Source: Marisa cornuarietis (lineage: Eukaryota; Mollusca; Gastropoda; Architaenioglossa; Ampullariidae). From it: DNA of 64,000 nt. Position numbers and translations under genes: made by a program. Within the stretch, counting starts at the first letter, position 1. Each line of letters opens with the position of its first letter. Of this stretch, positions 17,990 to 61,800 are shown in pieces. The DNA is taken from contig SMMW01000087.1 in the NCBI GenBank assembly GCA_004794655.1, positions 2,303,501-2,367,500 on the forward strand, in the 5' to 3' direction. The notes under the pieces are model-generated. The model was not told where the DNA came from. It worked only from the letters and a program-made list of their open reading frames with translations, and searched no databases.

Positions 17990-18290
17990 ACCCACCTTTT
18001 CTGTTTCACGTTCTCATCCAAGCAAAGCAGGTGTGTAACAGGTACTACTCTCCCCAAAGACGGCAGCTCCACGACAGGTATCCGCATCGGTATTGTGACA
18101 GAAACAGTGGAAATGGCTATAGGCTGGACAGGGTCTGGCGCAGCGAGGACATCAGGTTTACTAGGAAGTTCCCCGTAGTACCAATCGGGATTTACGGATG
18201 TGAAACGTAGACTCTGACGGCCGAAACGGAGAACGCAGGCATTCCATAGAACAAGTGCCAGAGGAGGCTACTCCGTATCTCGTACCTCCC
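17990..18290 (+). mobile_element. LINE RT C-terminal fragment
   Basis: Plus-strand frames give VVPIGIYGCET, then TLTAETENAG and CQRRLLRISYLP. These correspond to the YGCETWTLTAE...CLRRLLRISYLPH block near the end of many LINE reverse transcriptases. The same fragment occurs at 52900-53100 and resumes at 54520, where an LTR-type element interrupts it. Confidence 0.7.
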
Positions 18291-19248
18291 TATTAATGCC
18301 TTCAAAGGATGCGATAAAGATGTAGATAGAAAAACATATTATTATTATTGTGATGGTGGGAGGAGTGTGGTAATGGCATGTTCATTGATGGTAGAAAGGA
18401 AACTAAAGCTTTACACTAAAGGAAAAGTAGCATCCACTGGGAGTATCTACGCGCCTTCTTCAAAAGTAAAAAGCCAAATGGTCATTCAGATTTGTTTGTT
18501 TACACTGACGTGATGCAGACTACGTGTCTACACATCAGAACTCCTGGAATTATCTCGATTCCTCACCGGTGTAAACTTTATGGTGTGCATTTTTGTGAAG
18601 ACGTCTTTGTTTTTGAACTAAACAAATACCGGCTGCTGCTCTTCTCCCTTCCCGAGATGTACTTCATCGACAACTTGACGTGAAGGACCGTAACCTCTTG
18701 TTTCACCACCAGCCATCCTAACACGGGAGGCTTGGGTGTGTGTGGATGGAACCAGATCCCTTTTCCCCCGAGATGGCCAAGAAGAGGTAAAAGGGCGTTC
18801 CTATGTTTGCTTTGCATACGTGGGTCTCCTCTGTCCTGCCAACCGACACATACCTGCGTCACTTCGCCTCCTCCAAAGTGCAGGTTGAACGGAGAAGCAG
18901 ATTAGAGTTACAAGGCAGACACAACTGTCGTCACCTTTTGCTGTCGAGGCTACAAAAGTCTTTAAGAAGATACAATACTAATGCACAAGTCACAAGCCAG
19001 GCTTAAGGCAGCGAGAGGGAAAGAAAGGACATCGTCTTTACTTAACTGTTCTGGTGTGAAAATTGGGAATCTGTGATACATCATTCTACAAAAACTTTTT
19101 CTTTAATCTGAGCAGCTGTGTGGCAGCATCGATCGAAATAATTAACATAAATTCAATTTCTCTGTAACAGTTTGATTACCAAGTAGACCACACCCAACTC
19201 AGACCATTTAGATTACATCAAGGTAGAAAACAAGAAAGCTGCCAGAAG
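18290..19248 (+). promoter_or_regulatory. Copy A upstream region
   Basis: Collinear with 38225-39258 (copy B) and 55290-56399 (copy C). The last 120 bp before the ATG are nearly invariant in the three copies, including ATCGATCGAAATAATTAA and the leader CAAGAAAGCTGCCAGAAG. This marks the likely promoter and 5' UTR of the repeated gene. A fragment of the same region is misplaced at 31500-31735. Confidence 0.6.
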
Positions 19249-22200
19249 ATGCTGATATTTATTCTCCTTTTATTTACAGGTGAGTATGTTTATTGTCTCT
19301 TTTGCAATGTAGCACGCGTGCATATTTTCTAGGGAAACGGTTTTGACTTTCAGTATTTTTACATTATAAAGGCTTTCTCCAGATCTTGACACACCTTCTT
19401 CATACTGGCACCCAGAACCGTCTCCTTTCTGCTTCGTAACAGTGATGTCTTAGAAAAAAAAACCTTCTTGATGAACTTGTTAATGTTGTTGGCGACAACG
19501 AGGCTGCTGGATTACTTTCATCCCTAAGAATTAGTTATTACGAAAATTAGCTCGAGGCTTGAAGAACGGTCTTAAAATACTTTGCCCTTCATGTCTCCCC
19601 AACGACGCCTTTCCAGTATTCAGTAATTACTATTCTATTAATCTGGAGCCTGAACTGAAATGAAAATCTCGTTAGAACTAGTGTTAAATGCGAAACTACT
19701 CCAACACAGAACGTTATATATTTATATATTTATGTCTGTAGACAGCCAAAATAAACACAACAGTTGATGAAGTAATTTGACGAGAACAAAAACAGTTACA
19801 ATAATAATCATAAGATTAATTTTTATGAGGTACATAATTAACAACTCTGTAAGAGACAGATTATTGATGACAAGGTAGGGGGAAAAATTATATCATAAGA
19901 AAACGTGTGCATAAAACGTGCAGCAGCAACGATTTCACACCAATATTTCAGTTTTTGGGGTCTGCTTTTTATGGTTTCATATTGTTAACAAAGTATTTAT
20001 AAATTAGCGTTCAAGTCGGGTTTCTCTTCATTTGTGTCAAAAAATTCCAGTCTTACTGGGATACTCATCCCTCGCAGCCAAATAGATGTCGATCCTTAAT
20101 ATACAAATTTATTCCGATTTTATTCCCAGGTCTCATTCCAGTTGTATTGTACGCTAGTAATAGGCTGGATTGTTAGTAATGCATTAAGCCTTCCAGGAGA
20201 AGGAGCATCTATGTTTTTCGTTGCGGCAACAATTTTTTAAAAATAAAAAACCAGTTTGGTTCACTGCAGGGCGTATGTTTGATGTGTGGAGTGATTTGCG
20301 TGCGTCAACACACTCAGGCCTCACTACACTTCGCTCACCGTGTGTCTTCAGAATCTCGCAGCCATTTGATGTTTGAAGGAAAATAGAACGAAAAAATTTG
20401 TTTGCTATTTTTATTTCCGTTGGTCAACTATTACAGGTGCGCCTGTCACCACGAGGCTGTACTGAAATACGTCCTGGGCCGTGTCAACAGGTCTTGCGCT
20501 TGATACTAGCGGTGACAAGGGACAGCTTGGATAATCAGATGAGGTGGAAAAAGTCCTACCACCCTGGAGACTTGCTGGTTTGGCGAGGCTACGAGTGCGC
20601 TGCCACTATGCACGTGAATAGATGATAAACGAACGGACAGGGATAGAGAGACCTCTCCTCTGACGGGCGTTATACTTGCCTCCCCTCAACCCCACCTTGG
20701 CTTATGTGAGCTGCCATATCCGCTGTCCCTATAAAGTCAAGAAATTGAACTGGTAGGCAATTAAAAACAAAAAAATTGCACAGATAGAAAGAAAGACAGA
20801 GTGGGTGGTGTGATGAAATCTTTTTGTTCACACACACACAGATCTAGCGAGAAAGCAAGAGAAAACAGAAAGAGAGAAAGGGTGGGGTGGGGTGCGGGTG
20901 ATGGGAGACTTTCAAGAGGTGTCTGTGTGCGTTTGCAAACGAACAGGGGCTGATCAAGGTGTGGTCGCCCACGCTCTGTCGCACCCAGCGTCACATACTT
21001 ATTCTCATCATAAACGTGTTCACTTCAACCTACGCCCCAAATATAATGAAGTGAAGGAGACTGTGGGCAGGTCTGTTCAAACATGGGATGAAGACATCGC
21101 TGTGTACAGAGCGACACAAGCGCACCACGATGACCATTGTGCTGTCAGAGGTGTCAACGGTGACGGGGAGTGGTGAGAAAGGAAGCCTGTAGGAAATAAC
21201 GCAGGTTCCTTTACAGAATTAAATGGGAATAAGAGACAAATGTTTGGTACAGCCCACGTGATCTCGCGATATCAGTCTGGCCGACAAGCCGCACCATTCA
21301 GGGCTGCATTGCAAGACTGCACCTTTCTTCTTCATACATAAAAATATCCGCGGGACCTAATCACCCATCCCCTCCCTCAATTTATGGTGGGCTTCGTGTA
21401 GGACAGATGTGAAAACATCCCCTAGACACGAAAGATTGCCTACAGATCGAGATCTCAACCTGTCGCTCCCTCTGTCAGCTGCTTGAATAAAAAGTTTTAG
21501 TTATCATATTTTAAGAAACTGCTTATGGCTCAGAGTGCGATAAGAAATATTCCATAATCTTCTATAATATTCACAATTTGTGTACATTTTAATTATGAAG
21601 TGCTTACCGGCAAAGGGTGTGACCTATATATGCTCTACTGCGAAGGAAGCAAAATTATCCAGCATGAATGAAGAAATTTTACGGTAATCGTTGCTGATAA
21701 TTCAAGTTTTAAAATCTTATCTGCCTACTCTTCCTTAGGATTTGCTCTACTTTACTCAGTATATACAACAGTCTCGAAATGACCAGCTAGGGTCGGACTG
21801 CCAAGATGGAGTGTACATGAGCAGACGGATCTCAGGCGAGGCTCAGGATCAACAAGTCATTTGTAAAACCCAGTAGAGAGCTCGCGAAATAAGCGCGTGA
21901 AGGTGTCAGCTATGGTGATGTGTGTCGTGTCTCATAACATGGCAAACAGTCTGCTTTTTGCTGTCCTATAATTTTAATTTGCTTCAGTGATAGAGCTCGT
22001 TCCCAAAGGTCCTGTGAATTTTTGAAATGGGTTCTTTGTTGCCTTTATTTTAAAAGACTTCAAATTTCAGCACTGTCTGTGACCCACCCTAGGACCAAGA
22101 ATTCAATCCCGTTCTTCCACTCTTTGAGCAAGTAGCTCTTAAAACGACCGCATATAGTAAATATACCTGTTGCTTGACAACTGGGAAGTATTCGTTCTCA

Positions 22201-23325
22201 CCTTGATGACAGCCATTGTTGTGTTCACGCAGCAAGTAAGGGATGCGGAGGCTTGCATCATACTGAATCATTCAGCAGTAGGACATTTTCGACACCTTTG
22301 TACTTAAAAAAAAGAAGGGCTAGCATGGAAACAGTTTGAAACACACAAAAACGCTGGAGGAAAAAAAGCTTCAAATGTTGACGGAAGTCTGTGAGACGCC
22401 ATAAATAAATAAATTTTGGTGGTGATTATGATAAGTTATAGTGAATATCTGACATTTTGGTGAAAAATAATGTTGGTAAATGTGTAATTATTGGCTACAA
22501 ACTTTGTGAACATCGTGTTATCTAACTGTGCATAACTTTTTGCTTTTTTCCACCTCCAGGGCTTCTGTCAAGGAGTTGGAGTTTGAACAGGAACTGCACT
22601 TCTGCTGTTATTAACTGTAACTTCGTCAAGGCAGGGTTCATAGCAGCATCGGTAACCCCTTGCATGTAAGTCCCAGTTTTACAAATAAACGTAAACAGCA
22701 TGGAAGCCAGACCAGTGTCAAGGTTACTCATGCAACTGTGTGTTAGACACGACACAGAACACGCTAACCACTCGTCTTTACCTCATCACCCAATAAGGAC
22801 GATGCGCGTGATGTGCGTATGCGTTTCTTTACCGATCGCATCTAGCTTAATATTTTAGTTTAAGTTTCTCATCATTCGTCTGTGCTAGTTATCGTTTGAG
22901 TCTTACAGTCCGTTACACTGACAGTTTTTCAAGGCAGTGATGGTTGTAGAGATCGGTCCCCCAGATATCGGGATTAGTCCCCAAGATATCCACCGTACAT
23001 AATATCTGAGGACCGCTCGTCTTGTCGTACCGAGGGGAGGCATCTCCGTTACAGAATAGAAGTGGTTGAGAGGGGGGGGATGGAGAACTGAACTTAAATA
23101 TTTATTTGATGGGTCAACGACCCGTTCAAAGCAGGGCGAGATATGATTTCATCATCGTCCGAAAAGAACATACACATATATAAGACATGAATCAAGTACA
23201 TAGATACGTTCATATCTTTTCAACCTCTCATTACTTAACACCAACACTCATACCAATCATTCTCCATTTGCCCTCTCTTACTCTTTCTTCCCTATAATAG
23301 CTCGCGCTTGCACAATCCTGAATTG

Positions 23326-23388
<63 letters not shown>

Positions 23389-24627
23389 GCACATCACATT
23401 CACCAAAACTAAGTTTTCTTAGTTTTCTCTCTCTCTCTTCCATCTTCCTCTCCTACACACACGCACATCATACTCACTCACACACACACACACACACACA
23501 CACGCACGCACGCATGCACGCACAAACACACAAACACACACACACACACACATTTTAAGGCGATCGACCCCAGCGTGCTTTACATGTTGGTCAATTCTGT
23601 GAGTCCAACCACATGGGATCACATTGTTTGTCAAGTATTTCCAACATTCTCGTTGCGTCTTTTTAAAGCATAAAAGATGTACATCGCTACATTTCTTATC
23701 TCGTTAGTTTCCCCTCGAGACAACAACACAGCGAACGTCGTGTGCTGGTACCCATCATTTATCAGGGGTGCAAGATACTTGAAAGTTGTCTTTCAATCTT
23801 TGTTTGAGCAGCAAGATAAAAGCCCTAGCATCTCTTACCCCGCTTTGTTCCCACACATGCCTAAATCCGTAGTTCTGCAGGGTATCTTCCATTGCCTTCG
23901 CCCACGGTAGTCCAAAATTGAGCTGCATGTTGTAAGCTTAGTTTGGGAATCTTGACCTGTCCATGGTATTAAGTTTTAACCAATATTTTACAGCTCCTAT
24001 TGTGATGTTGATATACAGAGGGTATCTCCCGCTCTCGCTATATACCATAGGATTAGAAGTTTTAATATCTAAGCACAGAAACCTTAAGAGGGAGAGAGAA
24101 TACGAAATGAGTGTAGCTGAGCACCTCGCTACCCGGCATAAGCAGTCGCTCCCTTTACCCGATATACTGGAAGCCACGTGCCTTTGTTAAGTTACACAGA
24201 GAGCGGGTAGATAAGGGCGAGATAGAACCGGATAAATAACACAAGACTATAATTTATAATCCACAACATTGCTTCATTAATTTTACCACACACAAGCGTC
24301 CACTCCCTATACTAACCCTGCATCTACATTTTACAATCTAAATATCTTACTTTAAGAAGCTGACATTCCGCCCACCTTTACAGATCACCTCTCAGCCCTC
24401 CTCAACTTGTGTGCCAGTCGTCGCTACATTTCTGTCTCTTCCGAAGTGAAAGGATTTCTTTTAAAAGACAGCAACCAGGTGTTTTCTCTGTTGTATATAC
24501 ACAAATACGCTCCGTATGTTGCTTTTAGAGTTCGCACCTTTCCTTTCGCTAGCTAACCTGTCAACGTGTGGTCACGTGGTCATCCCTATATGGCTAAATC
24601 CTACCCCGTAATACCATCATGGGTGTG

Positions 24628-24692
<65 letters not shown>

Positions 24693-27600
24693 GCAGAAGC
24701 ATCCTAATGCGTAATAAGGAAGCAAAGAGTCTCTCTGTCTACCTCATTCCCTTTAAATAGTTTTTTCAAGCATAAGAACTATGACAGCGAATGTCTTTAA
24801 GAAGCAACCTCGATCCTTTGTCTTCCTCCAGGTACACACCAACATATATCACCTGCATAGGCAACATTTTATCGATGACTTCGGCTTGCGATGAGCTGTC
24901 TACCCTGGTGTTGAGAGACTTGACGTACTCAGAAGCAAAGAGCACCAACTTAAGGCTAAACTGCTCTTATGGTATGTTTGGGCTACCATACACCAACCTG
25001 AAGCTCCACGTGACTGCGTGCTATTCTTTGTATAACACCTTTATCCATCATAAAAGCAGCTTCCTCTTGTAAACTGACATTATAAATATGCATCTTCTTT
25101 GTCTCAACATTCATTTATAGATGATTACGCGCTTCTTTTTGTGTAATCCTATATAAAAGTATTTTTTTGGCGCAAGCATAACTTTAGGCATTGCAAACGT
25201 GCTTCCTCTGTGGATAAAGTAATTTTATTGACAGTAAACGTGCTTCCTGTTTGGTTAAACATATTTTCATGTACGTAAACGCACGATCCCCAGGCATAAG
25301 GATACTTTATACGGTAGTTTGCATCTCCGTCAAATGGTCAATAAAATTTCAATTCTTGACATTTCTTCTGTTTTGTTTGTAACTCCCCATGGGTTGGCAT
25401 TGTAGACTGTAACGAAATGGGTTTAAAATGCATTTTCTTCATCTTTCCTCCTAGTACTTTGTCAGTTCACATGACTACCTGTTTATAGTAGTATGGGGTA
25501 TGGCACGCACAGACACAGGTACACACACGCATTGCACACACACACACACACAGGTATAGAAAGGTAGGTGACATACCTTGTGACCGAAAGAGAGTGGGAG
25601 GGGGTTGGGGAAAACCACTAGCCGAATGGCGACCCGGCCGAAGGAGAGCGGAAGGGGGTCGCCTAGTAACAAGGACAGGGCTTCTAGAAAAGTCGGGTAT
25701 GAGGGGGATAAGAGGGTGAGAGAGGGAGAAGAGAGGTCAGTCGAACGGAGAGAAGAGAGGTGGGAGGATCGCCCCACCAAGGAGTTGTTAGAGCTTGATG
25801 TAGATTGTAGAGCTTTCGCCTAGTCAGACCTATCCTCTGACACAATAGTAAACCGGACTCAACCCACGACGGTGTTGTGTTATCATTGTGGTGAGACTGA
25901 GAGAGCGAACCTCATCCTACCCTGTTACATTTTTGGCGCCCAATGTGGGGCACTGGGCGAAACTTTGAGTGAAGCTTAGTGCCGAAAATGGAATTGACAG
26001 AAGAGGAAATGCAAGTGCTGGAGGCCTACAGGAATCTGGCGGTGAAGCCCACAGCAGACACCGCCGCTAACTTACAACAGTGGATGGCAGACAATGCCGA
26101 GACAACGGGAGCTACACTGTCGAAGGCGAGCGGGCCGCAGATACCACGACTGCCACCCTTCTCTGGCGGGAGAAGCAGCGACACGGCGCTCGACCTCTGG
26201 AGGTATGAACTGATGTGCTTGCGGGGACGATATACTGATGATATTGTGTTGGAGGCTGTTCGCCGTTCATTGAAAGGAGAGGCGGCAAGAGTGGCCATGC
26301 GTCTGGGCCCGCAAGCTACACTAGACGAACTGCTGAAAAAGTTTGACAGCATATTTGGTCTGGTGTTATATGACCAGGACATACTCGGCGCCTTTTACAA
26401 CGCGCGCCAGGAGGCCGGGGAAGATGTTACTCAGTGGCGGTGTCGCATTGAAGACACCCTGACACAAGCCCTGAATGCTCGCCTCATTGAGAAGCGGGCG
26501 TATGATGAGACGCTGCGCTGCAGACTATGGGGTGGCCTGCGTCAGCCCCTGAAGGACAGGACTGCCTACAAGTTCGAGATGGAGACAGACGTGGATAGTC
26601 TATTCCGCTTCATACGGCAGGTAGAGAGGGACGCCGAGGAACCAGCCCACAAACCAGGTGCTGGTAGACAAGCAACAGCTAAAGTGGCACAACCGACCCC
26701 CATCGAGGACTGGAGGGCGGAGGGGAAGAAACTGTCGGCGGAGGTGCAGTCGTTGCAGCGCCAACTGCAACAGAGGCCAGGCGACGGGCCCGCTGCCAGC
26801 AAAGAGCCAAAGCAGCGGCCGCCACGCCCCTCCTATGAGGACGAGGGGCCGACATGTTTTAGATGTGGTGGCAAAGGCCACATTCAAGTGGGGTGTCGAG
26901 TGCGCGCTGACCATCTGCGCACACCGTTAAACTACAAGCTGGTCTGCAGAAGGGAGCAACCGGTAGGCCAACACCCGCCAGCACGCGGCCCCGGTTGGGA
27001 GGAAACATTGATAGGACCCAGCACGTGTGTAGATGTCTGTATCGAAGGTGTAGCCACAGCAGCGCTGCTAGACACGGGTGCCACTGTATCGACTGTGACG
27101 GACACATTCTATCGTCAGAAACTGGCACACCTGGCCGTCCGTCCGCTTCAAGAAGTGTTACACATTGAATGTGCAGATGGCCGACTGCTCCCGTACATAG
27201 GGTACATCAAAGCGGACATACGAGTGGAGGGGGCAGGGGGCGGGGCTGACAGCTTCCCTTGCCTATTGTTGGTGGTGTCATCGACCAGGTACAGCGACAA
27301 TGTTCCAGTGCAGCTAGGTACAAATGTCCTGGAGCAACTTATGCACCAGGCACAAAAGAAGCATGGACCCCAGTTCCTGCAGGACGCACAGCTGCAACCA
27401 TCACTGCATCGTTCTTTTAGTTGCCTAGCGATGCGAAGCAGAGCTCTGCGAATGAATCGAAATAGGCTGGCGTACGCGCGCTGTTTACAGACCATCAATC
27501 CAGTCAACGAGGTTCCGTGCGAACGCCCCACAGGTATGACCAAGGCGGCACCAAACTGTGTAGACTCAATGACTATCTCGCCACATCTGACAGTGAAACA

Positions 27601-30600
27601 GCAGTCGCGCATCAAAGACAGGGTTAGCAGCCACACCGAGAATTTTGCAATCAGCAAAACGGATGGTGGCAAGGTCACACGTGTGAAGTGCAAAGTAGAG
27701 CTAGCAAACGGCTCAAAGAAAAAACGGACTCGTAACCGCAACATGCTGCTACCAGTAGGCGGCATATTAGAGGATGAACATCAACAAGAAGGTGCGAGAG
27801 ATCACTTGCCTCATCGCAGGCCACGAAAACCACGCCGCCCGCTCAGAAATGACAACAGAGCAGATTCATCCGCCCGTGAAAGTGAGAGCGACAGCGACAC
27901 ATCTAGCACAGCGCTCGTACATACACGGCCGCCGGCCACCAGGTCAAGAGGGCAACCGATGGCGAGTGCTGTTAGTAGCGAGGAAGAGTAGGGTAGGGAC
28001 GAAGATGAGATGGAGTTACCCCGTCCGGTCCCTGACCCAGATTCAGAAGCCACCACGCAGCCTCCAATGCCAACGACAGGGAAGTCCCATCCGCTCAGGA
28101 AGGGGGGAGAGAGGAGGAGGAGGGCGCACCACCGTCACCACACCACGCCCCTCGAGTGTCAGCAAGGCCACGTCAGCAACCAGCGTGGATGAGAGGCGAC
28201 GAATTTGTCCTTCGCCTGCAGCCGAGCCCAGACGATAGCCTGAGGTGCCAGAAGATTATCTTGTTGCTGAACAAACTGTCTTCAGAAAAACTTCCTGAGA
28301 GTGTTATAAGCATGTTAATCGAGGCTGTCTGGCCACTGTTGTAAACACACACAAACTCGCACGCTATTCAGGCTTTATGAGGAAAGGACTTTGACGATAT
28401 TGTGATTGGATATATGTAGATTCATTTACTCTGTATTTTATATATGTTTGTAGTATGTTTATATTAGAAAAACCGGGTTGCAGGTTTAAATGTCGAGGAC
28501 GACATTTCTCCTCGAGGGGGTGTGTATAGTAGTATGGGGTATGGCACGCACAGACACAGGTACACACACGCATTGCACACACACACACACACACACACAC
28601 ACAGGGATAGAAAGGTAGGTGACATACCTTGTGACCGAAAGAGAGTGGGAGGGGGTTGGGGAAAACCACTAGCCGAATGGCGACCCGGCCGAAGGAGAGC
28701 GGAAGAGGGTCGCCTAGTAACAAGGACAGGGCTTCTAGAAAAGTCGGGTATGAGGGGGATAAGAGGGTGAGAGAGGGAGAAGAGAGGTCAGTCGAACGGA
28801 GAGAAGAGAGGTGGGAGGATCGCCCCACCAAGGAGTTGTTAGAGCTTGATGTATATGCTTTCGCCTAGTCAGACCTATCCTCTGACGCGCTAGTAAATCT
28901 GAACCCACGACGGTGTTATGTTATCATTGTGGTGAGACTGAGAGAGCGAACCTCATCCCACCCTGTTACATGTTCATCACCTGTAGGCAAATAAAATTAC
29001 ATGCTGTCATCTATTGTTCTGTGACAGATATCCCTGAAGTCTTCCTGCTAAATGACTGTGAGAAGCAAAAATCCAACTGTTCAAAACTCAGTGTTTATCC
29101 GTTTGTTGAGGGGGACATCAACAAGAAGTGCGAGTTAGTAACCACTCATTTCTTTAAGGCAAATATATCAGTAGGCATAAATGCACCAGTAAATCAGAAT
29201 GCATCAATATATTGTGTAAGTGTATACGATCATGATGTTGTCAAATTCATTTAACTACACGTAGAGAGAGAAAGAGAAGGGGAAGATCGCATTAATTACA
29301 AACTAATTATAGGCGTGTGTGTCAGGTATCTGGAAACATTCCGAAGCTGCTTTGACAAAACGACAGCAGCATGTGAAGACAGAAGTGACATCGTCAGGAT
29401 CGTCAACATGGAGCTGACAAGACTTCAGTGTGAGTTTGTCTGACATCGGTCTTGCACTCTGTGTGTGTGTGCGTGCGTGCGCGCGCGCGCGTTCATGTGT
29501 ACGTTTATGTCAACACGTCTGTGTGAAGGGATAAGTGTGTATGTGTGAGTGTAGATATGTGTGTATATGTGAATGGATGTGTATATGTGGGTGTGAATAT
29601 AATGCTTGGGATGTACACATTCGTGCACCCATACAGCAGGCAAATGTGTATGCACGTGTATCAGTACACACACCTACCAACGCGCTCACACACACACACA
29701 CCCACACACACACCATATACAGCCATGTGTTAGTGAGATAAAACTGTGAATTGTAGTATTGTAGTGTATTTATTATTCTCATTTTAAACTATTTATAAGT
29801 GAAGACTTCACACCAATATGCTATAGTCATTTTTTGTCTGCCCTCCATTCCACTTATATCACCAGCCCGTACATTTACATACATTGTAATCCTGTCAGTG
29901 GGGAAAGTGAAGATGTCGTTCTTTCTTTTGCAGACAACTCTACGTGTGTCGGTAAGAACTCTTGCTTTCTTAGTAGTGTGAGAAACTGAGCAAATGATTC
30001 ACGGAAACTGAAAACAGAGAGAGAGAGAGAAAGGTAGAGAATATGGAAAAAAGAATACGCAGGAAAACAAACAAAGAAAAAAAACCCAACAGATTTGTTT
30101 CTGTCTTATCACACATTTGGCTGAGTAATTTCTAAAGCTCCCCAGTTAATGTATCGATGTAGTCAGTGAAGTTAATTAATGTAGTCAGTATAGTTAATTA
30201 ACGTAGTCATCTTTCCCGCTAATTCTTGGAGACGAGCGAAGCATTAACGAGGTTTCTAAAGCCCAGCTTATGTTTAAAAGTGTTGTAGGTCTTAATTTTC
30301 TAAAAACAAACAATTTTTTTAATATTATTATCGAAACCTCTATATACGGGAGTACCTTACACATTATACCACCAGCCTAGAAAACACTTTATGATTTATT
30401 TATTTCTTATTTTTTTATTATTTATTATTGTTTCACGAGCATTACTCCTGACACCAATCAACATAGCTGTCACTAGTTGTAATTATAGTCAACTGACATG
30501 TCCACTTGTTCGTCTTCCTCTGCAGATTTATGACACTCTTCATCTTTCCTATTTGTTTACTGGTTCCTCTTTGTATCTTCTATGCTTGTCTTTTATTACT

Positions 30601-31334
30601 TGTTTGCATAGTTATTTCTCTTTCCGTAATTCGTATTCTGTTTTCTACTTGTCTTAAGCTCTGAAAGCATGCTCATTGGTTAGATTGACTATGCGCTATA
30701 TAGTGTAAGATTAGCAAACATGATTTAAAGTACTCAGCTCGGAGATTAAAGTTAATATTAAAATAAAGCTGTGACGAAAAAATAATCAGCCGGACAGCAA
30801 CCTATACAATTACTGTCTTTAAAACAAATACACGAATTCTCTGTCGTGACCCTGGAAGAATCAGATAAAGGTAGTCCCGTGACACTGAAGGAATGAGATG
30901 TTAAAGATACTAAAGACCCACTGTTCTCGGGGGCAGCTATTGTGAGGGCCGTACCCATCTCCTGTCCCTTGTTGCCTTACCTTCCCTAACCCTCTAAGTA
31001 GTCAAGCACCACTCCACAACTGGGTCAAGAGAGCGGAAGCAAGCTACATCACAAAGGTATCGAACTTATTATCTTTTATCTGCACGTTTGAGTTTGAGCA
31101 AGGACAGTCTTTACTAATGTCTATTGTTTAAAACACCGCTATTCTCTTTGCCTTCGATTGGCATCGTGTAAAAATTGTTGGCAATCCACGCCGTGCTTCT
31201 TGATCTGTCATCCAGGATGGCAATCCACGACGATAACCACAACGACAACCAGCACCACGGCAGCGACTACAACACGGGGTAAGTGTCTCCTATTTGCCAC
31301 AAGGGGCGCTCCAGTGCCCCAGAGGTGGTCGTGA
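19249..31334 (+). CDS. Copy A: secreted six-cysteine/mucin-like protein, 3' truncated
   Basis: Not recognised as a named family. Exons: 19249-19279 (signal peptide), 22560-22665, 24832-24971, 29028-29133, 29326-29429, 29934-29951 (18-nt microexon) and 31216-31278 (Thr-rich). All are GT-AG and in frame. All 12 cysteines of copy B are present at the same positions, in two six-Cys domains (residues 23-90 and 103-167). The Thr-rich exon is 66 nt shorter than in B, phase kept. The genomic copy ends near 31498, so the exons for the rest of the stalk and the C-terminal anchor are absent. Reading through the last donor gives a stop at 31332-31334 and a predicted soluble 207-aa product. A 3.5-kb Gypsy element sits in the intron between exons 3 and 4. 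It may be a functional secreted form or a pseudogene. Confidence 0.65.
20890..21330 (+). other. Intron 1 segment shared by copies A and C
   Basis: Closely matched by 58150-58605 and absent from copy B, whose intron jumps from the equivalent of 20480 to about 21955. The long open frame at 20892-21176 is not conserved in length and shows no recognisable domain. I treat it as intronic repeat, not a gene. Confidence 0.5.
23070..24085. mobile_element. About 1-kb insertion in copy A intron 2
   Basis: Copies A and B match up to AGAAGTGGTTG (A about 23070, B about 42265) and again from GAATACGAAATGAGTGTAGC (A 24099, B 42291). A carries about 1 kb of extra sequence between, with two (CA)n arrays (23329-23387 and 23478-23551). 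No coding domain or clear terminal structure was identified. Confidence 0.6.
24630..24689. repeat. (CA)n microsatellite, copy A intron 2
   Basis: About 30 uninterrupted CA units. The paralogous position in copy B (42838-42870) has only a short C-rich/CACA and GAGA tract, so the array expanded or contracted after duplication. Confidence 0.95.
25484..25929 (+). repeat. 5' LTR of the Gypsy derivative
   Basis: Direct repeat of 28525-28970, ending CCCTGTTACA. It contains a short CA array (25537-25552), a purine-rich GAGAGAGG region and no coding function. The open frames at 25475-25823 reflect base composition only. Confidence 0.9.
25934..25951 (+). other. Primer-binding site, tRNA-Lys(CUU) type
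   Basis: TGGCGCCCAATGTGGGGC begins 4 bases after the 5' LTR. It is complementary to the 3' 18 nt of animal tRNA-Lys(CUU), including CCA, except one position (T for the expected C). Confidence 0.85.
25988..27991 (+). CDS. Gag-protease polyprotein with truncated pol
   Basis: 667 aa from the ATG at 25988. Gag occupies about residues 1-285. A CCHC zinc knuckle CFRCGGKGHIQVGC lies near residue 290. A retropepsin active site LLDTGATVS lies near 360, with a later VQLGTNVLEQL block typical of the flap/C-terminal part. Near residues 530-575 the RT lead sequence (FAISKTDGGKVTRVKCKVEL) appears, then the frame runs straight into an integrase C-terminal motif RNRNMLLPVGG near 583 and an acidic/arginine-rich tail. 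RT core, RNase H and integrase core are missing: an in-frame deletion of pol. A TAG at 27989 ends the ORF, and the same frame continues to about 28192 with tail-like sequence, so this stop may be secondary. Confidence 0.88.
   Translation: MELTEEEMQVLEAYRNLAVKPTADTAANLQQWMADNAETTGATLSKASGPQIPRLPPFSGGRSSDTALDLWRYELMCLRGRYTDDIVLEAVRRSLKGEAARVAMRLGPQATLDELLKKFDSIFGLVLYDQDILGAFYNARQEAGEDVTQWRCRIEDTLTQALNARLIEKRAYDETLRCRLWGGLRQPLKDRTAYKFEMETDVDSLFRFIRQVERDAEEPAHKPGAGRQATAKVAQPTPIEDWRAEGKKLSAEVQSLQRQLQQRPGDGPAASKEPKQRPPRPSYEDEGPTCFRCGGKGHIQVGCRVRADHLRTPLNYKLVCRREQPVGQHPPARGPGWEETLIGPSTCVDVCIEGVATAALLDTGATVSTVTDTFYRQKLAHLAVRPLQEVLHIECADGRLLPYIGYIKADIRVEGAGGGADSFPCLLLVVSSTRYSDNVPVQLGTNVLEQLMHQAQKKHGPQFLQDAQLQPSLHRSFSCLAMRSRALRMNRNRLAYARCLQTINPVNEVPCERPTGMTKAAPNCVDSMTISPHLTVKQQSRIKDRVSSHTENFAISKTDGGKVTRVKCKVELANGSKKKRTRNRNMLLPVGGILEDEHQQEGARDHLPHRRPRKPRRPLRNDNRADSSARESESDSDTSSTALVHTRPPATRSRGQPMASAVSSEEE
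28514..28520 (+). other. Polypurine tract
   Basis: GAGGGGG lies immediately upstream of the 3' LTR, the expected position for plus-strand priming. Confidence 0.7.
28525..28970 (+). repeat. 3' LTR of the Gypsy derivative
   Basis: Near-identical to the 5' LTR. It differs mainly in CA-array length (longer here, about 28573-28602), a 6-bp difference near 28852 and a few substitutions near 28885-28916. Confidence 0.9.
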
Positions 31335-44232: not shown

Positions 44233-44315
<83 letters not shown>

Positions 44316-44504
44316 TGCGCGTTCATGTGTACGTTTATGTCAACATGTCTGTGTGAAGGGACAAGTGTGTATATATGAATGTAGATCTGTGTGTATATGT
44401 GAGTGGATAAGTGTGTATGTGTGTGTATGTATGTCAGTGTGGATATAATCCTGTGGACATTCGTGCACACATACAGCAGGCAAATGCACACACCTACCGA
44501 CGCG

Positions 44505-44545
<41 letters not shown>

Positions 44546-45283: not shown

Positions 45284-45376
<93 letters not shown>

Positions 45377-48300
45377 CACTAACCATAAACGCTTCCACTA
45401 GGGGACGGACGTTATAACAAAACTCGGGGCTGCCTCTCGGGGCCAGACGTGATATACAAAATGGATTTGCCTCTGGGGACGAGCCACCCAACTTTTTAAC
45501 CATAAACGCCGCCTCTCGGGGTCAGACGTTTTCACAAAATGGTGCTGTCTCTGGGGACGAGCCACCCAACCTTCAAACACAAACGCTGCCTCTCGGGGCC
45601 AGACGTTGAACATGAAATGGCGCTGCCTCTAGGGACGAGCCACCCAACCTTCTATTAACAGACGCCGCCTCCGGGGGAACGGGTATTACATAACTGGCGT
45701 TGCCTCTTGGGGACGAGCGATCACAATTCTCCTGGCCAAATTCTCCAGGGTACAAATAATTCCAGTTAACTGCGCCTATAACAATCACAACAAAACCAAC
45801 TTACTAATACATATTTATGTCATTAAAACAATACAGGAAAAATTCAACTTTTACAGAAAACATCAGAGATACTAAAAAAACATAGAAACAACGCACCTTT
45901 CTCGGAAGACGCAGCCTTCACTCCCCCACACGCAGTGTCTCTCCACTTGCCGTGTCTCTCTGGGTAGTGAAGCACTGGGCCGGAGACAGTTAATTACTCT
46001 TCTCCCTATCTAGAAAAAAAAAACCTTTGAGTCATGTGCCAGGTGCGACTCGGCCACCCACACTGTACTGTTAGCTCCCATGACATCCCTTTGTAACACT
46101 GAGAAATTTCTAAAGCTCCCCAGTTAGTGTATCGATGTAGTCAACGAAGTTAATTAACGTAGTCAATATAGTTAATTAACGTAGTCATCATTCCCACGAA
46201 TTTTTTTAGATGAGGGAAGCATTAACGAGGTTTCTAGAGCCCTGCTTATTTTTGAAAATGTTGATCAATAGTAGGCCTTAATTTTCTAAAAACAGTCGAC
46301 CACAATTTATTTATTATTATTGAAACCTCAATTTACGAGAGTGCCTTACACACTATCAACAGCTTTGACTGCTTTATTGTTGTTTCCCACCAGCCTAGAA
46401 AACAGTTTATGATTTATTTATTATTATTTATTATTGTTTCACTAGCATTACTCTTGACACCAATCAACACAGCTGTCACTAGTTGTAATTATAGTCAACT
46501 GACATGTCCACTTGCTCGTCTTCCTCTGCAGATTTATGACACTTTCCATCCTTCCTATTTATTCCCTGGTTCCTATTTGTATCTTCTATGTTTGTCTTTT
46601 ATTACTGGTTTGCATAATTATTTCTCCTTCCGTTCTTCGTATTCTGTTTTCTTTTTGCGCTATATAAATCACACATTTTATTATTATTATTATTTATAAA
46701 AATAAAATATCGTTTAAACATGTTTGTGTAGGATTAGCAAACATGATTTGAAGTACTCAGCTTGTTTATGAAAGTTAATACAGTATTAAAATAAAGCGGT
46801 GACGAAAAAGATGAGCCGTACAGCAAGCTATACAGTAACTGTCTTTTAAAAAAAACACGAATTCTCTGTCGTGACCCTGGAAGAATCAGATAAAGGTAGT
46901 CCCGTGACACTGCGGTCATTGAAGAACTGAGATGTTAAAGATACTAAAGACCCATTTTTCTTGGGGTCAGCTATTATGAGGGCCGTACCCATCTCCTGTC
47001 CCCTGTTGCCTTACCTTCCCTAACAGTCTAAGTAGTCAAGCACCACTCCACAGTTGGGTCAAGAGAGCGGAAGCAAGCTACATCACAAAGGTATCGAACT
47101 GCGGTTATTATCTTTTATCTGCACGTTTGAGTTTGATCAAGGACAGTCTTTACTAATGTCTATTGTTTAAAACATTGCTATCCTCTTTCCCTTTGATTGG
47201 CATCCTGTCAAAATATTTGGCAACCCACGCCGGGCTTCTTGATCTGTCACCCAGGATGGCAAACCACGACCGCACTGACTTCAACGGCCAGTCTGTCGTC
47301 TAGGCAGGGCTCGACGACGATAACGACATCGACAACGACATCAAGAACGACAACCAGCACCACGGCAGCGACTACAACACGGGGTAAGTGTCTCCTATTT
47401 GCCATAAGGGGCGCTCCAGTGCCCCAGAGGTGGTCGTGATCGTCACAGACACAACAAGGAGGCTGGGCAGAGGGTTTTGATCTCGCCGCTGGCATATCTA
47501 ATTTTTCTCTCATGACATCTGTTTATGGAGTTAGGCTTGCTTGTAAGTCTTTTTTTTTTAATCATTTCGTGTAACGCCAACCAACCAACGAGTCGTGCAT
47601 CAGACTAGCTCTATCTTCCCTTCCAATCCCCCGCCCTTCTTACAGCCAGTTGCTTCACCTTTACTCACACGAAGAAAAACATCGATACTTATGAGCTGAT
47701 AAGATGAATGATATGTTAATGTTAACGTTTTTAAGGATCTATATCATCTTTAAATTTACTCGCTAGCCATGAGCTTTACAAGCTAGGCGGTAAGTGCTAT
47801 GGATAATCACGTGACCTTGCAAATGTGACGCAAATGTTCCACGTCCTCTATGATACCAGGACGGACCGATCCCGCAACTACGACGACCACCACAGTTCCA
47901 AGTGCAACCAGCACAGCAGCGCCCACTACTCCAGGTGAGAAAGTCTGCGTGTTCTCCTTCTACGGTGATTAGCGAGTTATTACGTGTTCTACTTTAAATA
48001 TTTTTAGTTTTTCGGGTTTTTCTGTTCTTTCTAATACAGCTTGCTCGGAAAATAGCACAGTGTCAAAGTGTTTAACATTTGAATGCTGTGTGTTACGCCT
48101 TCTGCCTCTTTTATCTGTATAATGTCCATCAAAACGCAGGACTGCTTTTGCAAATGCGCTGATGGGTTTCTGATATCAAGGACTACTACGTACTCTGGCG
48201 GAATTAGTCAATGCACGGACTTTCAATCTGAATGAGCATCATTGAGGGAATGTATAGGCAATAATATTTTGTGCCAAATATTAATACGTTATATATTATT

Positions 48301-48474
48301 TATATTATTATACAGAAGGTATTGGTTTAAAATGATCTACAGAAACTAGAACAATATTGATTTATTATTGTCTTTATTATTGACTAGTACCTTTGCTTGT
48401 GGAGTTTGTGAGAGACAGACACCTGGCTAAGCTATCGGACGAAGGGATGAGCGAAAGAGAGAGAGAGAGTGTGT

Positions 48475-48554
<80 letters not shown>

Positions 48555-48839
48555 TCGTCCAACTTTTGCATATCAGTGAATTCATTCCTTTTAGACAACA
48601 GCAACAGCAACAATAACTCTCCTGGTGTCCTAGTCAAAGGAGGCAACGGAGGCAACATAGTCGGTGAGTAAAGCAAGTCATGCGAGAAAGACGCTGATTA
48701 CAGTTTATTAGTAATCATGATTGCTAACTCTTAAAGGGACAGAGTTTGGTCCCATTAACATAAGTCGACGCACAGAGCCTTTTGAAACAGAAGCATATGT
48801 ACGTAAAACATACAAAACTTACACTAGCCCTTCTCCCTT

Positions 48840-48871
<32 letters not shown>

Positions 48872-49111
48872 ACACACACACACCAGTCCATTTTCATCAG
48901 TGTACCGTTTGACAGTCACTGTTCCACTTGCGTATTACTCGTATATATTCATAAAGAATTGGAGCATAGGTTCCGTTGTCTCTATAATCTTCTTACACAA
49001 CATCTCTGTCGTCGCCACAAGTGATGAAAACCTGAATAATGTGTTGCAGTATCCTCAGTGACATGGATGGTCTTGCTGACGACACTAGTCTACATGTGGG
49101 CGCGCACATAA
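39259..49111 (+). CDS. Copy B: signal peptide, two six-Cys domains, mucin stalk, C-terminal anchor
   Basis: Complete 10-exon gene of unrecognised family, 279 aa. Exons: 39259-39289, 41683-41788, 43006-43145, 43793-43898, 44104-44207, 44770-44787, 47255-47383, 47860-47934, 48595-48663 and 49050-49111. All are GT-AG and every junction is in frame. Residues 1-18 are a hydrophobic signal peptide. Cys domain 1 has cysteines at 23, 30, 45, 54, 65 and 90; domain 2 at 103, 110, 127, 136, 144 and 167. Four N-glycosylation sequons are present (22, 89, 109, 164), three of them NCT/NCS. Residues 170-236 are a Thr/Ser-rich stalk on two exons. 238-259 is Asn/Gly-rich. 261-279 is hydrophobic ([19 protein letters not shown]), suiting a GPI-attachment signal or a membrane anchor. 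It should be a cell-surface glycoprotein; ligand and role are unknown. Confidence 0.75.
39838..40022 (+). repeat. SINE tail with (CCAA)n expansion
   Basis: GTGATATAGCCTTAGTTGC, the SINE/LINE 3' tail, is followed by about 40 nearly perfect CCAA units (39861-40022). Copy C has the same tail at 57020-57081 with only five units. The LVGW/NQPT open frames here are translations of the repeat, not genes. Confidence 0.95.
43537..43618 (+). mobile_element. Short LINE 3'-end insertion in copy B intron 3
   Basis: About 82 bp present in B but not in A (25363), ending AATAAAGTTGTATTGCATTG. This is a common 3' end of non-LTR elements. ATTTC occurs at both edges and may be a target duplication. Confidence 0.65.
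44236..44311. repeat. (GT)n microsatellite after copy B exon 5
   Basis: About 38 GT units just downstream of the exon 5 donor. The copy A position (29461-29490) holds a much shorter GT/GC tract. Confidence 0.95.
45289..45375. repeat. (CA)n microsatellite within the solo LTR
   Basis: About 43 CA units inside the LTR. Confidence 0.95.
45395..45735. repeat. 78-bp minisatellite within the solo LTR
   Basis: Four units, exactly 78 bp apart, marked by GAGCCACCCA at 45481, 45559 and 45637 and a diverged GAGCGA at 45715. Each also has GCCTCTCGGGG and CAGACGTT. 78 is divisible by three, which explains the long overlapping open frames here; there is no sign of translation. Confidence 0.9.
46400..46700 (+). 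mobile_element. LINE/SINE 3' end in intron 6 (copy B)
   Basis: Ends GCGCTATATAAATCACACA followed by (TTA)n. The related stretch in copy A is 30390-30700, and copy C keeps only the end (58611-58700). The element predates the duplications. Confidence 0.6.
48471..48552. repeat. (GT)n microsatellite upstream of copy B exon 9
   Basis: About 40 GT units, ending 42 bases before the exon 9 acceptor. Confidence 0.95.
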
Positions 49112-50553: not shown

Positions 50554-50625
<72 letters not shown>

Positions 50626-51650: not shown

Positions 51651-51654
51651 CGCT

Positions 51655-52310: not shown

Positions 52311-52324
52311 CAATCTATGTATGA

Positions 52325-56399: not shown

Positions 56400-58656
56400 A
56401 TGCTGATATTTGTTCTTCTTTTACTCACAGGTGAGTATGTTTATTGTTTCTTATTTTATCATGTAGCAGGCGTGTATATTTTCTAGGAAAGCGGTTTTGA
56501 CTTTCAATATTTTTACATTATAAAGACTTTATCCAGATCTTGCATCACTTTCATCCTATTGGCAACCATAACCGTCTCCTTTCTGCTTCGTAACCGTTAT
56601 GTCTTTGAAAAAACAACCTTCTTGGTGAAGTCGTTGATGCTGTTGGCGACGACGTGGCTGCTGGATTACTTTCATACCCAAGAATTAATTATTGCGAAAA
56701 TTAGCTCAAGGCTTGAAGACGAAACTAAGGACAAGAGCTGATTCTGTAAAATTATGACAACAAAGAATAGAGAGAAGCAGGTGTGTATGGCGGCCATCAT
56801 GCTCTCAACCTCATCAAAGCCGTCAGCTGAAGGGTGGTCCTAGTGTTGCTTTGCCGTGCTCTAGGCTCAAGAGTGTATCACTCTTCCTACATTTATGGTC
56901 ATTTCTCAGGGTGCTAATGTTAAAATTTAAAATGAATTGATCTGTACATTCTGTATTTGGTATTTATACATGATTTTCGTTCTGTTTTTCAACGTTTTAA
57001 TGTAACATTACCATCTCTCGGCGTGATATAGCCTTAGTTGCTGGCACGGCATAAAATGGAACCAACCAACCAACCAACCAACCTCGACGAGAACAAAATC
57101 AGTTATAATAATAATAATAATAATCATAAGATTAATTTTGATAAGGTTCATAACTAACAACTCTGTCAGAGACAGATTATTAATGACAAGGTAGTGGGAA
57201 AAGTAATATTTATCATAAGAAAACGTGTCCATAAAACGTGCAGCAGCAACGACTTCACACCAATATTTCAGTTTTTTGGTCTGTTTTTATGGTTTCCTAT
57301 TGTTAACAAAGTATTTATAAATTAGTGTTCAAGTCGGGTTTCTCTTCATTTGTGTCAAAAAATTCCAAGGTCTTACTGGGATACTCATCCCTCGCAGCCA
57401 AATAGATGTCGATCCTTAATATACAAATTTATTCCGATTTTATTCCCAGGTCTCATTCCAGTTGTATTGTACGCTAGTAATACGTTGGATTGTTAGTAAT
57501 GCATTAAGCCTTTCAGGAGAAGAAGCATCTATGTTTTTCGTTGTGGCAACATTTTTTAATCCAAAAACCAGTTTGGTTCACTGGGCGTATGTTTGATGTG
57601 TGGAGTGATTTGCGTGCGTCAACACACTCAGACTTCACTACACTTCGCTCACCGTGTGTCTTCAGAATCTCGCAGCCATTTGATGTTTGAAGAAAAATAG
57701 AAAAGAAAAAAGTGTTCGCTATTTTTATTTCCGCTGATCAACTATTACAGATCACCACGAGGCTGTACTGAAATACGTCCTGGGCCGTGTCAACAGGTCT
57801 TGCGCTTGATACTAGCGGTGACAAGGGACAGCTTGGATAATGAGATGAGGTGGAAAAAGTCCTACCTCCCTGGAGACTTGCTTGTGTGCCGAGGTTACGA
57901 CTGTGCTGCCACTATGCACGCGAATAGATGATAAACGAACGGAAAAGGATAGAGAGACCTCTCCTTTGACGGGCCTTATACTTGCCTCCCCTCAACCCCA
58001 CCTTGGCTTATGTGAGCTGCCATATCCGCTGTCCCTATAAAGTCCAGAAATTGAACTGATAGGCAATAAGAAACAAAAGAAAAATGCACAGATAGAAAGA
58101 GTCAGAGAAAAAAAATGTTGCGAGAAAGCAAGAGAAAACAGAAAGAGAGAAAGAGTGGGGTGGGGTGGGGTGATGGGAGAATTTCACGAGGCGTGTCCGT
58201 GTGCGTTTCCGAACGAACAGGGGCTGATCAAGGTGTGGTCGCCCACGCTCTGTCGCACCCAGCGTCACATACTTATTCTCATCATAAACGTGTTCACTTC
58301 AACCTACGCCCCGAATATAATGAAGTGAAGGAGACTGTGGGCAGTGCGTGTGTTCAAACATGGGATGAAGACATCGCTGTGTACAGAGCGACGGAAGCGC
58401 ACCACGATGACCATTGTGCTGTCAGGTTCTGATTCACTGGCGACGTGGAGTGGAGAGGAAGGAAGCCTATAGGAAATATCGCAGGTTCCTAGAACAGAAT
58501 TAAGTGGCAAGAAGAGGAGGCAAATGTTTGATAGAGCCCATGTGATCTCGCGATGTCAGTCTGGCCGACAAGCCATTCGGGGCTGGATTGCAAGACTGCA
58601 CCTTTCTTCTTCCGTTCTTCGTATTCTGTTTTCTATTTGCGCTATATAAATCACAC

Positions 58657-58696
<40 letters not shown>

Positions 58697-60329
58697 GAAA
58701 TATCTTGTTTAAACATGTTTGTGTAGGATTATCAAACATGATTTGAAGTATTCAGCTAGGAGATTTGTTTATTAAAGTTAATATTAAAATAAAGCTGTGA
58801 CGAAAAAGATCAGCCGAACAGCAAGCTATACAGTAACTGTCTTTTAAAAAATACACGAATTCTCTGTCGTGACCCTGGAAGAATCAGATAAAGGTTGTCT
58901 CGTGACACTGCGGTCATTGAGGAACTGAGATGTTAGAGATACTAAAGACCCATTTTTCTTGGGGCCAGCTATTGTGAGGCCCGTACCCATCTCCTGTCCC
59001 CTGTTGCCTTACCTTCCCTAACAGTCTAAGTAGTCAAGCACCACTCCACAGTTGGGTCAAGAGAGCGGAAACACACTACATCACAAAGGTATCGAACTGC
59101 GGTTATTATCTTTTATCTGCACGTTAGAGTTTGAGCAAGGACAGTCTTTACTAATGTCTATTGTTTAAAACATTGCTATCCTCTTTCCCTTTGATTGGCA
59201 TCGTGTCAAAATTGTTGGCAACCCACGCCGGGCTTCTTGATCTATCACCCTGGATGGCAATCCACGACCGTATTGACTTCAACAGCCAGTCTGACGTCTA
59301 GCCAGGGCTCGACAACGATAACGACATCGACAACGACATCAACAATGACAACCAGCACCACGGCAGCGACTACAACACGGGGTAAGTGTCTCCTATTTGC
59401 CATAAGGGGCGCTCCAGTGCCCCAGAGGTGGTCGTGATCGTCACAGACACAACAAGGAGGCTGGGCAGAGGGTTTTGATCTCGCCGCTGGCATATCTAAT
59501 TTTTCTCTCATGACATCTGTTTATGGAGTTAGGCTTGCTTGTAAGTCTTTTTTATAATCACTCCGTGTAACGCCAACCAACCAACGAGTCGTGCATCAGA
59601 CTAGCTCTATCTTCCCTTCCAATCCCCCGTCCCTGTTACAGCCAGTTGCTTCATTTTTACTCACACGAAGAAAAACATCGATACTTATGAGCTGATGAGA
59701 CGATCGATGTGTTAATGTTAAACTTTATAAGGATCTATGACATCTTTAAATTTACTCGCTAGCTATGAGCTTTACAAGTTCGTCCAACTTTTGCATATGA
59801 GTGAATTCTTTCCTTTTAGACAACAGCAACAGCAAAAATAACACTCCTCGTGTCCTAGTCAAAGGAGGCAACGGAGGCAACAAAGTCGGTGAGTAAAGCA
59901 AGTCATGCGAGAAAGAGGCTGATTACAGTTTATTAGTAATCATGATTGCTAACATTTAAAGGGACAGAGTTTGGTCCCATTAACATAAGTCGACGCACAG
60001 AGCCTTTTGAAACAGAAGCATATGTACGTAAAACATACAAACCTTACACTAGCCCTTCTCCCTTTTTCTCTCTCTTTCTCTCTCTCTCTCACACACACAC
60101 ACCTGTCCATTTTCATCGATGTACCGTTTGAGAGTCACTGTTCCACTTGCGTATTACTCGAATGTATTCTAAAGAATTGGAGCACAGGTTTCGTTGTCCC
60201 TATAATCTTCTTACACAACATCTCTGTCGTCGCCACAAGTGATGATAACCTGATTAATGTGTTGCAGTATCCTCAGTGACATGGATGGTCTTGCTGACGA
60301 CACTAGTCTACATGTGGGCGCGCACATAA
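56400..60329 (+). pseudogene. Copy C: signal peptide, stalk and anchor exons only
   Basis: Retains exon 1 (56400-56430), the Thr-rich exon equivalent (59253-59381), the Asn/Gly exon (59820-59888) and the C-terminal exon (60268-60329). The cysteine-domain exons 2-6 are gone: intron 1 jumps near 58611 directly into the sequence equivalent to 46630 in B. The second stalk exon is also deleted (junction near 59779). All remaining exons are phase 1, so joining them would still be in frame (96 aa, ectodomain almost purely mucin-like). However, the Thr-rich exon's acceptor reads CCCTG instead of CCCAG, so normal splicing is unlikely. Probably a pseudogene; a mucin-only product through another acceptor cannot be excluded. 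Confidence 0.65.
57000..57081 (+). mobile_element. SINE/LINE tail with short (CCAA)5
   Basis: GGCGTGATATAGCCTTAGTTGCTGGCA followed by AAAATGGAACCAACCAACC. It is the orthologous insertion to the expanded array in copy B. Confidence 0.75.
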
Positions 60330-60543: not shown

Positions 60544-60588
<45 letters not shown>

Positions 60589-61695
60589 CGTGCCTCCAAG
60601 TGTGTGTGTAGAAGGTGGGGAATATATATATATATATATATAAACATTTATAATTTACACGTGTTTCTTTTGTGAGATTATATGTCAGAGTAGTGGTGGG
60701 CGAAGAGATAATATCAATGCATTCCTGCACTTAAAATATAAACAACATTCTTTATTATTTTTTCCTGCTAGGTAAGTTCTTAACTTTGACTATACTAGTA
60801 TTCATCGTAACTAACCCTGGTAGGCACAGAATCAACGTACAATATTTATTAACATACTTTAATCCTGATTTGATTATATAATGTTATTGCTTTTGTTTCT
60901 TAGATATTTTAAATGTATCCCATGAACTATAGAATTATTGAACTAAAATTTTCAAGTTTCTTTGCTGCAAACGTATTTATTCTCGTAATTAACCAGTTAT
61001 CATTCATGGGTTCAGTTCATTAGCTTTTGCTGTGTTTGGAAAGCATCCGAAATAGCTATATCTCTGCAACTTATTATTATTATTATTTATTGCAGCCGAG
61101 ACTTTGTGTGTAGGAAGTATTGATGCTTGCGTATGACTGTCACAAATTCTTCCAGTGATAAGATTAATTCAAATTCTCATAGCAGAAAATAAATTCAAGC
61201 ATTTATTATCTACTTGTTATTGTCTGTAGTATCTAGTAAAGGTAAAAACGTTAATATTTTTATTTTCTTTGCTTTTCTTTATTTAAGTGAGGTCCTGAAA
61301 ACCTTTTGTGACTCTCTTTCCTAATGTCTCTAGAAAAATAAGAATCTTGTCTGAAACGAGAAAATAATAATGATTAACATGAAAGAGTATATGACAAGTT
61401 TATTTAGAAATGTGTATATATATATATATATATGCATATATAAAAGCAAAGTAAAGAAGCTGGTAATCTCACACACATAGAACATGGTATTCATACACTA
61501 ACATGGAGCACGCTATGTATGCACTAACATGGAGCATGATACTCACACAATAACATTACATGTCCACACGAGTACAAGTAAAGACATCACAGGTAGTAAC
61601 TAATTGTGCACATTATGACAACTTTTTCTCTCTTTATTTCTCGCACACACACACACACACACACCCACACCCACACCACAACACACACACACACG

Positions 61696-61736
<41 letters not shown>

Positions 61737-61800
61737 AGACGTATGCAGAGGCCATATGAACATGTTTGTAATATAACTCATCACGGTTATATTAAAGTAG
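60330..61800 (+). other. Copy C 3' flank, shared with copy B
   Basis: Collinear with 49112-50700. It contains GT/GA and AT microsatellites (60545-60590, 60624-60642, 61416-61432) and a CA array at 61646-61734. No gene seen. The match ends near 61805, marking the end of the duplicated unit. Confidence 0.65.

Follow-up and report, generated by a model that had tools for sequence, protein, structure and literature searches.

A tandem array of six-cysteine genes in the apple snail Marisa cornuarietis and its probable surface glycoprotein products

What is encoded by the small, repeat-buried exons that recur, each time behind the same leader, along one stretch of the genome of the ampullariid snail Marisa cornuarietis? 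The stretch, here called the window, comprises 64,000 nucleotides of contig SMMW01000087.1 (assembly GCA_004794655.1, positions 2,303,501 to 2,367,500 of the forward strand), in which an earlier sequence-only reading had described three tandem copies, A, B and C, of a protein with two six-cysteine domains, a mucin-like stalk and a C-terminal anchor. The middle unit, copy B, is a complete gene, and its product aligns end to end with an independently annotated protein of Pomacea canaliculata. The best overall explanation, which we consider probable but by a modest measure, is an ampullariid surface glycoprotein, likely anchored by glycosylphosphatidylinositol (GPI), with a faster-changing outer module, encoded in an array that gains and loses copies; copy B would be a functional gene for such a protein.

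Copy B and its Pomacea counterparts

Copy B consists of ten coding exons at 39259..49111 on the plus strand, joined at nine GT-AG junctions, and encodes 279 residues followed by a TAA stop. The sequence-only reading had spoken of ten junctions; nine are coding, and no search was made for a non-coding one at the 5′ end. Its introns are mostly phase 1, as had been proposed (7 of the 9, the remaining two being phase 2). The protein runs from a signal peptide through two six-Cys modules and a Ser/Thr stalk to a hydrophobic C-terminal tail. In the following list, P0001 is the Pomacea protein.

39259..39289, plus strand: exon 1, start codon and first half of the signal peptide (MVIFVLLMFTG in P0001); GT donor, ends in phase 1
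41683..41788, plus strand: exon 2, end of the signal peptide and module 1 Cys 1-3; AG/GT, ends in phase 2; 22/35 identical to P0001
43006..43145, plus strand: exon 3, module 1 Cys 4-6; AG/GT, ends in phase 1; 30/46 identical to P0001
43793..43898, plus strand: exon 4, module 2 Cys 1-3; AG/GT, ends in phase 2; 24/35 identical to P0001
44104..44207, plus strand: exon 5, module 2 Cys 4-5; AG/GT, ends in phase 1; 30/35 identical to P0001
44770..44787, plus strand: exon 6, last Cys of module 2; AG/GT, ends in phase 1; YNSTCVG across the junctions, as in P0001
47255..47383, plus strand: exon 7, Thr/Ser stalk; AG/GT, ends in phase 1; aligned in P0001 with one 6-residue gap
47860..47934, plus strand: exon 8, Thr/Pro stalk unit; AG/GT; P0001 has a second, similar unit
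48595..48663, plus strand: exon 9, Asn-rich end of the stalk, GGNGGN before the tail; AG/GT; aligned in P0001
49050..49111, plus strand: exon 10, hydrophobic C-terminal tail and TAA stop; AG acceptor; aligned in P0001, both ending in WART

The spliced model and the full-length match to P0001 bear out the complete 279-residue protein of the sequence-only reading. P0001 is a 296-residue protein annotated as “cell wall integrity and stress response component 3-like isoform X2”, and it aligns across every B exon; exon 3 has a gap of one residue and the repeat of exon 7 a gap of six, while the extra exon-8-like unit in P0001 accounts for a further 24 residues. Over exons 1-6, 119 of 168 residues are identical (71%), and cysteines, stalk and tail are as in B. 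A second full-length P. canaliculata relative, P0003 (uncharacterised protein LOC112563236), has the same design as E, a further complete gene lying downstream of the window (see below), with which it groups; its stalk is longer, 48 residues where E has 37, and it has an extra Cys at residue 18. E is 73% identical to its closest P. canaliculata relative over exons 1-6, and all 12 module cysteines are conserved in B, E, P0001 and P0003. The P0001 and P0003 records list the same longest contig, of 34,737,321 bases, which is consistent with one linked pair in Pomacea but is not proof of it.

The name of P0001, which refers to yeast WSC proteins, most likely reflects its Ser/Thr stalk only, and no WSC domain was matched by B or P0001 among Pfam matches up to an expect value (E) of 10. 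The word “isoform” in that name may point to transcript support in P. canaliculata. Annotation based on open reading frames had been expected to miss the gene; for Pomacea this fails, as NCBI names both counterparts, one of them with the fungal label. Nothing was found in the open-licence literature on the label of P0001, on LOC112563236 or on GPI-anchored cysteine-rich proteins in Pomacea.

Each module has the cysteine pattern C-x6-C-x14..16-C-x8-C-x7..10-C-x22..24-C, is bounded by phase 1 introns and is interrupted, in the codon that follows its third Cys, by an intron of phase 2. BLASTP aligned module 1 of B with module 2 at E 5e-5 (for one comparison), and the module profiles scored 18.4 against each other, while shuffles with fixed cysteines averaged 10.2 (standard deviation 2.3, highest 22.7) and reached that score in 2 of 400 cases, or 1 of 200 in a separate run. 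Taken together, intron phases, BLASTP and profile scores make an internal duplication the probable origin of the two modules. Between species, module 1 is the less conserved: identities are 40/67 for module 1 vs 53/65 for module 2 between B and P0001 (p 0.0075), 44/68 vs 51/65 between E and P0003 (p 0.088) and 84/135 vs 104/130 pooled (p 0.0018), the last value being generous because the two orthologue pairs are related to each other.

Modules of this general kind, small, extracellular and holding several cysteines, include EGF, trefoil, Kunitz, peritrophin-type chitin-binding and Ly6-like modules, some of them in GPI-anchored proteins. The cysteine spacing of the snail modules differs from the familiar patterns of all five, and none of these was matched in Pfam up to E 10. 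The sequence-only reading knew no named family with this architecture, and the search of Pfam with hidden Markov models that it had proposed likewise returned no family: in Pfam, NCBIfam and PDB no relative was found, the matches being weak (picornavirus VP3 0.065, ApoM 0.079, eS12 0.14, PRK01631 0.17, DUF494 0.18, RGM_N 0.61, invertase inhibitor 0.85, GltG 2.2, allergen Arg r 1 2.4 and Dicty_REP 4.3). Three candidate families were rejected individually. GDNF receptor/GAS1 (PF02351) gave no hmmscan match, and the single match of its profile in the genome lies on contig C2, none in the array; T20D4.11-like/DUF19 (PF01579) gave no hmmscan match up to E 10; and the RGM N-terminal domain (PF06535) reached 10.8 bits against a curated cut-off of 24.2, in one of four members. 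In a collection of 5.8 billion proteins, only P0001, P0003 and P0002, a 154-residue fragment with unspliced flanks, scored among the best 8000 candidates of each alignment search, so a distant relative could be missed; a single-protein search of the collection gave 32 candidates, two of them scoring. At this sensitivity the family appears restricted to ampullariids.

Extent and history of the array

Units A, B and C are indeed collinear and share a leader and first coding exon, as the sequence-only reading had it (19249-19279, 39259-39289 and 56400-56430). The description as a three-copy family was wrong, because A and C are incomplete and the array runs on past the window to a decayed copy, D, and the second complete gene, E. 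The copies other than B are as follows, D and E being given in window-equivalent positions.

19249..31278, plus strand: copy A, partial; exons 1-7 with consensus splice sites
19249-19279, 22560-22665, 24832-24971, 29028-29133, plus strand: copy A exons 1-4
29326-29429, 29934-29951, 31216-31278, plus strand: copy A exons 5-7, exon 7 being 66 nucleotides shorter than in B, in frame
56400..60329, plus strand: copy C, remnant; exons 1, 7-like, 9 and 10 only
56400-56430, 59253-59381, 59820-59888, 60268-60329, plus strand: copy C exon 1, exon-7-like piece (acceptor TG where AG is expected), exon 9, exon 10
67042-68057: copy D, decayed; stops in the exon-3- and exon-4-like pieces
70814-82275: gene E, complete; nine exons, 232 residues
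70814-70844, 74323-74428, 74570-74709, 77676-77781, 78186-78289: gene E exons 1-5
78691-78708, 79567-79656, 81672-81713, 82214-82275: gene E exons 6-9, with the stop

No recognisable exons 8-10 were found in copy A by tblastn (E 0.05). In copy C, exons 2-6 and 8 were not found, and the stretches of B that hold them have no aligned counterpart there; the sole exon 8 match, a weak one, falls inside its exon 7. Repeats of 80-90% identity connect 11.6-31.5 kb to the sequence from 31.7 kb onward, so the duplicated unit is about 20 kb long. The copies are best explained if A is a recent 3′-truncated copy and C and D are remnants, in an array where copies are gained, lost and perhaps converted; within about 65 kb it shows duplication and truncation, with conversion as a further possibility.

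The genome assembly (534,278,870 bases in 572 contigs) was searched with both Pomacea proteins. With P0001 (limit E 1; best 29 candidates scored), all 15 matches lie in the array, at E up to 0.32; with P0003 (limit E 10; best 18 candidates scored), 14 of 17 do, and the other three, at E 0.73-3.6 with stops inside, look like chance matches. At that sensitivity the family occupies one locus in the M. cornuarietis genome. The earlier notion of a lineage-specific family of cell-surface glycoproteins thus stands as to surface-type design, single locus and ampullariid hits; three comparable copies it does not have.

In an unrooted tree of five sequences (A, B, E, P0001 and P0003), one branch with support 100/99 splits E and P0003 from A, B and P0001, and A pairs with B at 93/91. 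By alignment and tree position, A (without its 3′ part) and B both belong with P0001; the orthology of the pairs B-P0001 and E-P0003 is supported. On the simplest reading, B and E would be two paralogues older than the split from Pomacea, and A and C later copies. Over exons 1-6, B and E differ with non-synonymous and synonymous rates (dN, dS) of 0.213 and 0.801, a ratio of 0.27 (0.31 in module 1, 0.14 in module 2), and diverged under purifying selection. Exon 5 departs from this picture: 97 of 104 bases and 31 of 35 residues are identical between B and E, compared with 23 of 35 residues between E and P0003 (p 0.044). Because B-E identity exceeds E-P0003 identity there, this weak test suggests that exon 5 of E may have been converted by B, or the reverse.

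A surface glycoprotein and its alternatives

The stalk has 84 residues in B, and its Ser/Thr content is 52% there, 41% in E, 41% in P0001 and 25% in P0003. In all four complete proteins, NG[GS] stands upstream of the hydrophobic stretch, and the tail beyond that stretch has at most about three residues (B ...YMWART, P0001 ...YVWART, P0003 ...YVWTRM, E ...SVWAIM). By inspection and hydropathy, a GPI-signal layout (a small-residue site, then a spacer and a hydrophobic tail, without a cytoplasmic tail) would fit all four, somewhat better than a transmembrane helix does. Signal peptide, Ser/Thr stalk and hydrophobic end with NG[GS] speak for a GPI-anchored surface glycoprotein. The protein would be glycosylated and disulfide-bonded and may take part in surface recognition; a role in immunity or mucosal defence, raised as a possibility by the sequence-only reading, would be conjecture. 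The C-terminal anchoring of the sequence-only reading is retained as to the hydrophobic tail, seen in B, E, P0001 and P0003, the type of anchor being a matter of sequence inspection.

In this explanation, the signal peptide would be removed from the copy B product, two disulfide-bonded six-Cys modules would be displayed on an O-glycosylated Thr/Ser stalk, and the C-terminal hydrophobic peptide would most likely be exchanged for a GPI anchor. Module 2, beside the stalk, would be the conserved and probably structural part; module 1, the outer one, changing faster, would be likelier to contact a ligand. The array would gain, lose and perhaps convert copies around B and E, old paralogues kept in both species compared.

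Several points weigh against this explanation. The copy B model is drawn from genomic sequence and protein comparison, and GPI anchoring was assessed by eye and a hydropathy scan. Module 2 has an additional phase 1 intron (between exons 5 and 6, before the last Cys) that is absent from module 1, and hhalign itself gives the pairing of module 1 with module 2 a probability of only 7.8%. The faster change of module 1 reaches significance in one of the two orthologue pairs. Structure predictions, proposed earlier for residues 19-169 and made here for P0001 and P0003 from alignments of ten rows each (eight of them single exons), are of very low confidence: the mean predicted local distance difference test score (pLDDT) is 38.5 and 39.4 and the predicted template modelling score 0.21 and 0.26, respectively. 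Both contain three helices in module 2, a block with pLDDT of about 40-57 from which no reading is drawn, and they are unsuited to a fold search because the confidence is too weak. Between A and B, dN/dS is 0.97 over exons 1-6 (17 non-synonymous and 5 synonymous changes), 1.76 over residues 19-92 (13 changes) and 0.37 in module 2 (5 changes), so that their divergence shows neither constraint nor a convincing positive signal; strict module 1 (residues 23-90) holds zero synonymous changes and too few changes to read. Exon 2, in which A and B show 9/106 differences against 6/294 in its flanks (p 0.005), was considered a hot spot of positive selection and rejected as such, because 32.5% of the 3621 overlapping non-exon windows, each with 106 aligned bases, contain nine or more differences. 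In the five aligned blocks together, differences are rarer in exons (22/505) than outside them (278/4151, p 0.044).

Among the alternatives, a structural or mucus-type glycoprotein of the epithelial glycocalyx, egg capsule or reproductive tract survives best, though we regard it as fairly unlikely. Its modules would cross-link or space the stalk without recognition, and the high Ser/Thr content, the variation of stalk length between species and the greater conservation of module 2 would agree with it; the stalk is, however, just 84 residues long in B and 37 in E, and two conserved modules and an anchor-like tail are common to B, E, P0001 and P0003. A single-pass membrane protein of type I in place of a GPI-anchored one is a little less probable still. 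The basic residue after the hydrophobic stretch in B, P0001 and P0003 would suit it, but E has no charged residue there and the tail is very short in all four.

A function for copy A, and perhaps for C as well, is about as doubtful as the transmembrane alternative; A would give a soluble form without an anchor or be spliced into B as additional exons, and C would give a short anchored peptide. The seven exons of A are open with consensus splice sites; read-through past exon 7 gives 207 residues before a stop; the frame is kept when exons 1-7 of A are joined to exons 8-10 of B (258 codons with the stop) or to exons 2-10 of B (459 codons with the stop); and a polyadenylation-signal-like hexamer begins at 31523. 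Such frame agreement is nevertheless expected because most introns are phase 1, hexamers of this kind are common, with many in the region scanned, constraint is not evident between A and B, and C lacks both modules as well as the AG acceptor of exon 7. Much less probable is a more ambitious form, a recognition locus with an undescribed fold found in apple snails only, in which B and E would be anchored receptors and A, whose phase 1 exons are shared with B, would supply a soluble form or, spliced into B, a four-module receptor. Finally, a chance chain of open segments at copy B, for which nothing was found to speak except the small exon size, can be dismissed, because independently annotated P0001 aligns over its full length, and E repeats the design under a B-E dN/dS of 0.27.

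For the preferred surface glycoprotein, the nearest functional model is the PTC2 cluster of Biomphalaria glabrata, a cluster of polymorphic single-pass membrane genes, and a similar role might be proposed by analogy only. According to its published description (PMC7494358), PTC2 likewise comprises clustered small snail membrane proteins with no known domains and no relatives outside gastropods, and two of its genes are without a membrane segment, as copy A is without an anchor; the likeness is one of described features. PTC2 differs in its transmembrane segment and extreme allelic diversity, the latter being tied to parasite resistance in PTC2/GRC-like surface clusters; the array here was read from one assembly. 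The apple snail genes form an interesting orphan family but not a categorically new one. The family itself is real, and its description exposes a misleading database name for one member (P0001) and offers a defined gene pair in which surface expression and recognition can be examined. Should parasites or microbes be bound by the outer module, snails would have another case of clustered orphan surface receptors, beside the PTC2 and GRC clusters of Biomphalaria.

Other features in and around the window

Within intron 3 of copy A lies a stretch that has no aligned counterpart in B and is not part of the gene:

25480..28974, plus strand: open frame flanked by direct repeats, which are about 460 bases long and 93% alike

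The frame, at 25973-27988, encodes 672 residues that weakly match gag, PNMA and aspartic protease. Upstream of the array, an exon of the gene for the 14 kDa subunit of ubiquinol-cytochrome c reductase is found at 7913-8212 on the minus strand (PF02271, E 1.6e-19). Two open frames, 11495-11770 and 12151-12591, gave no Pfam match; 11631-12416 has a 90% identical copy that opens the next duplication unit, at 31737-32503. An older repeat pair, 2463-3856 and 53101-54447, is 72-78% identical and apparently unrelated to the gene units.

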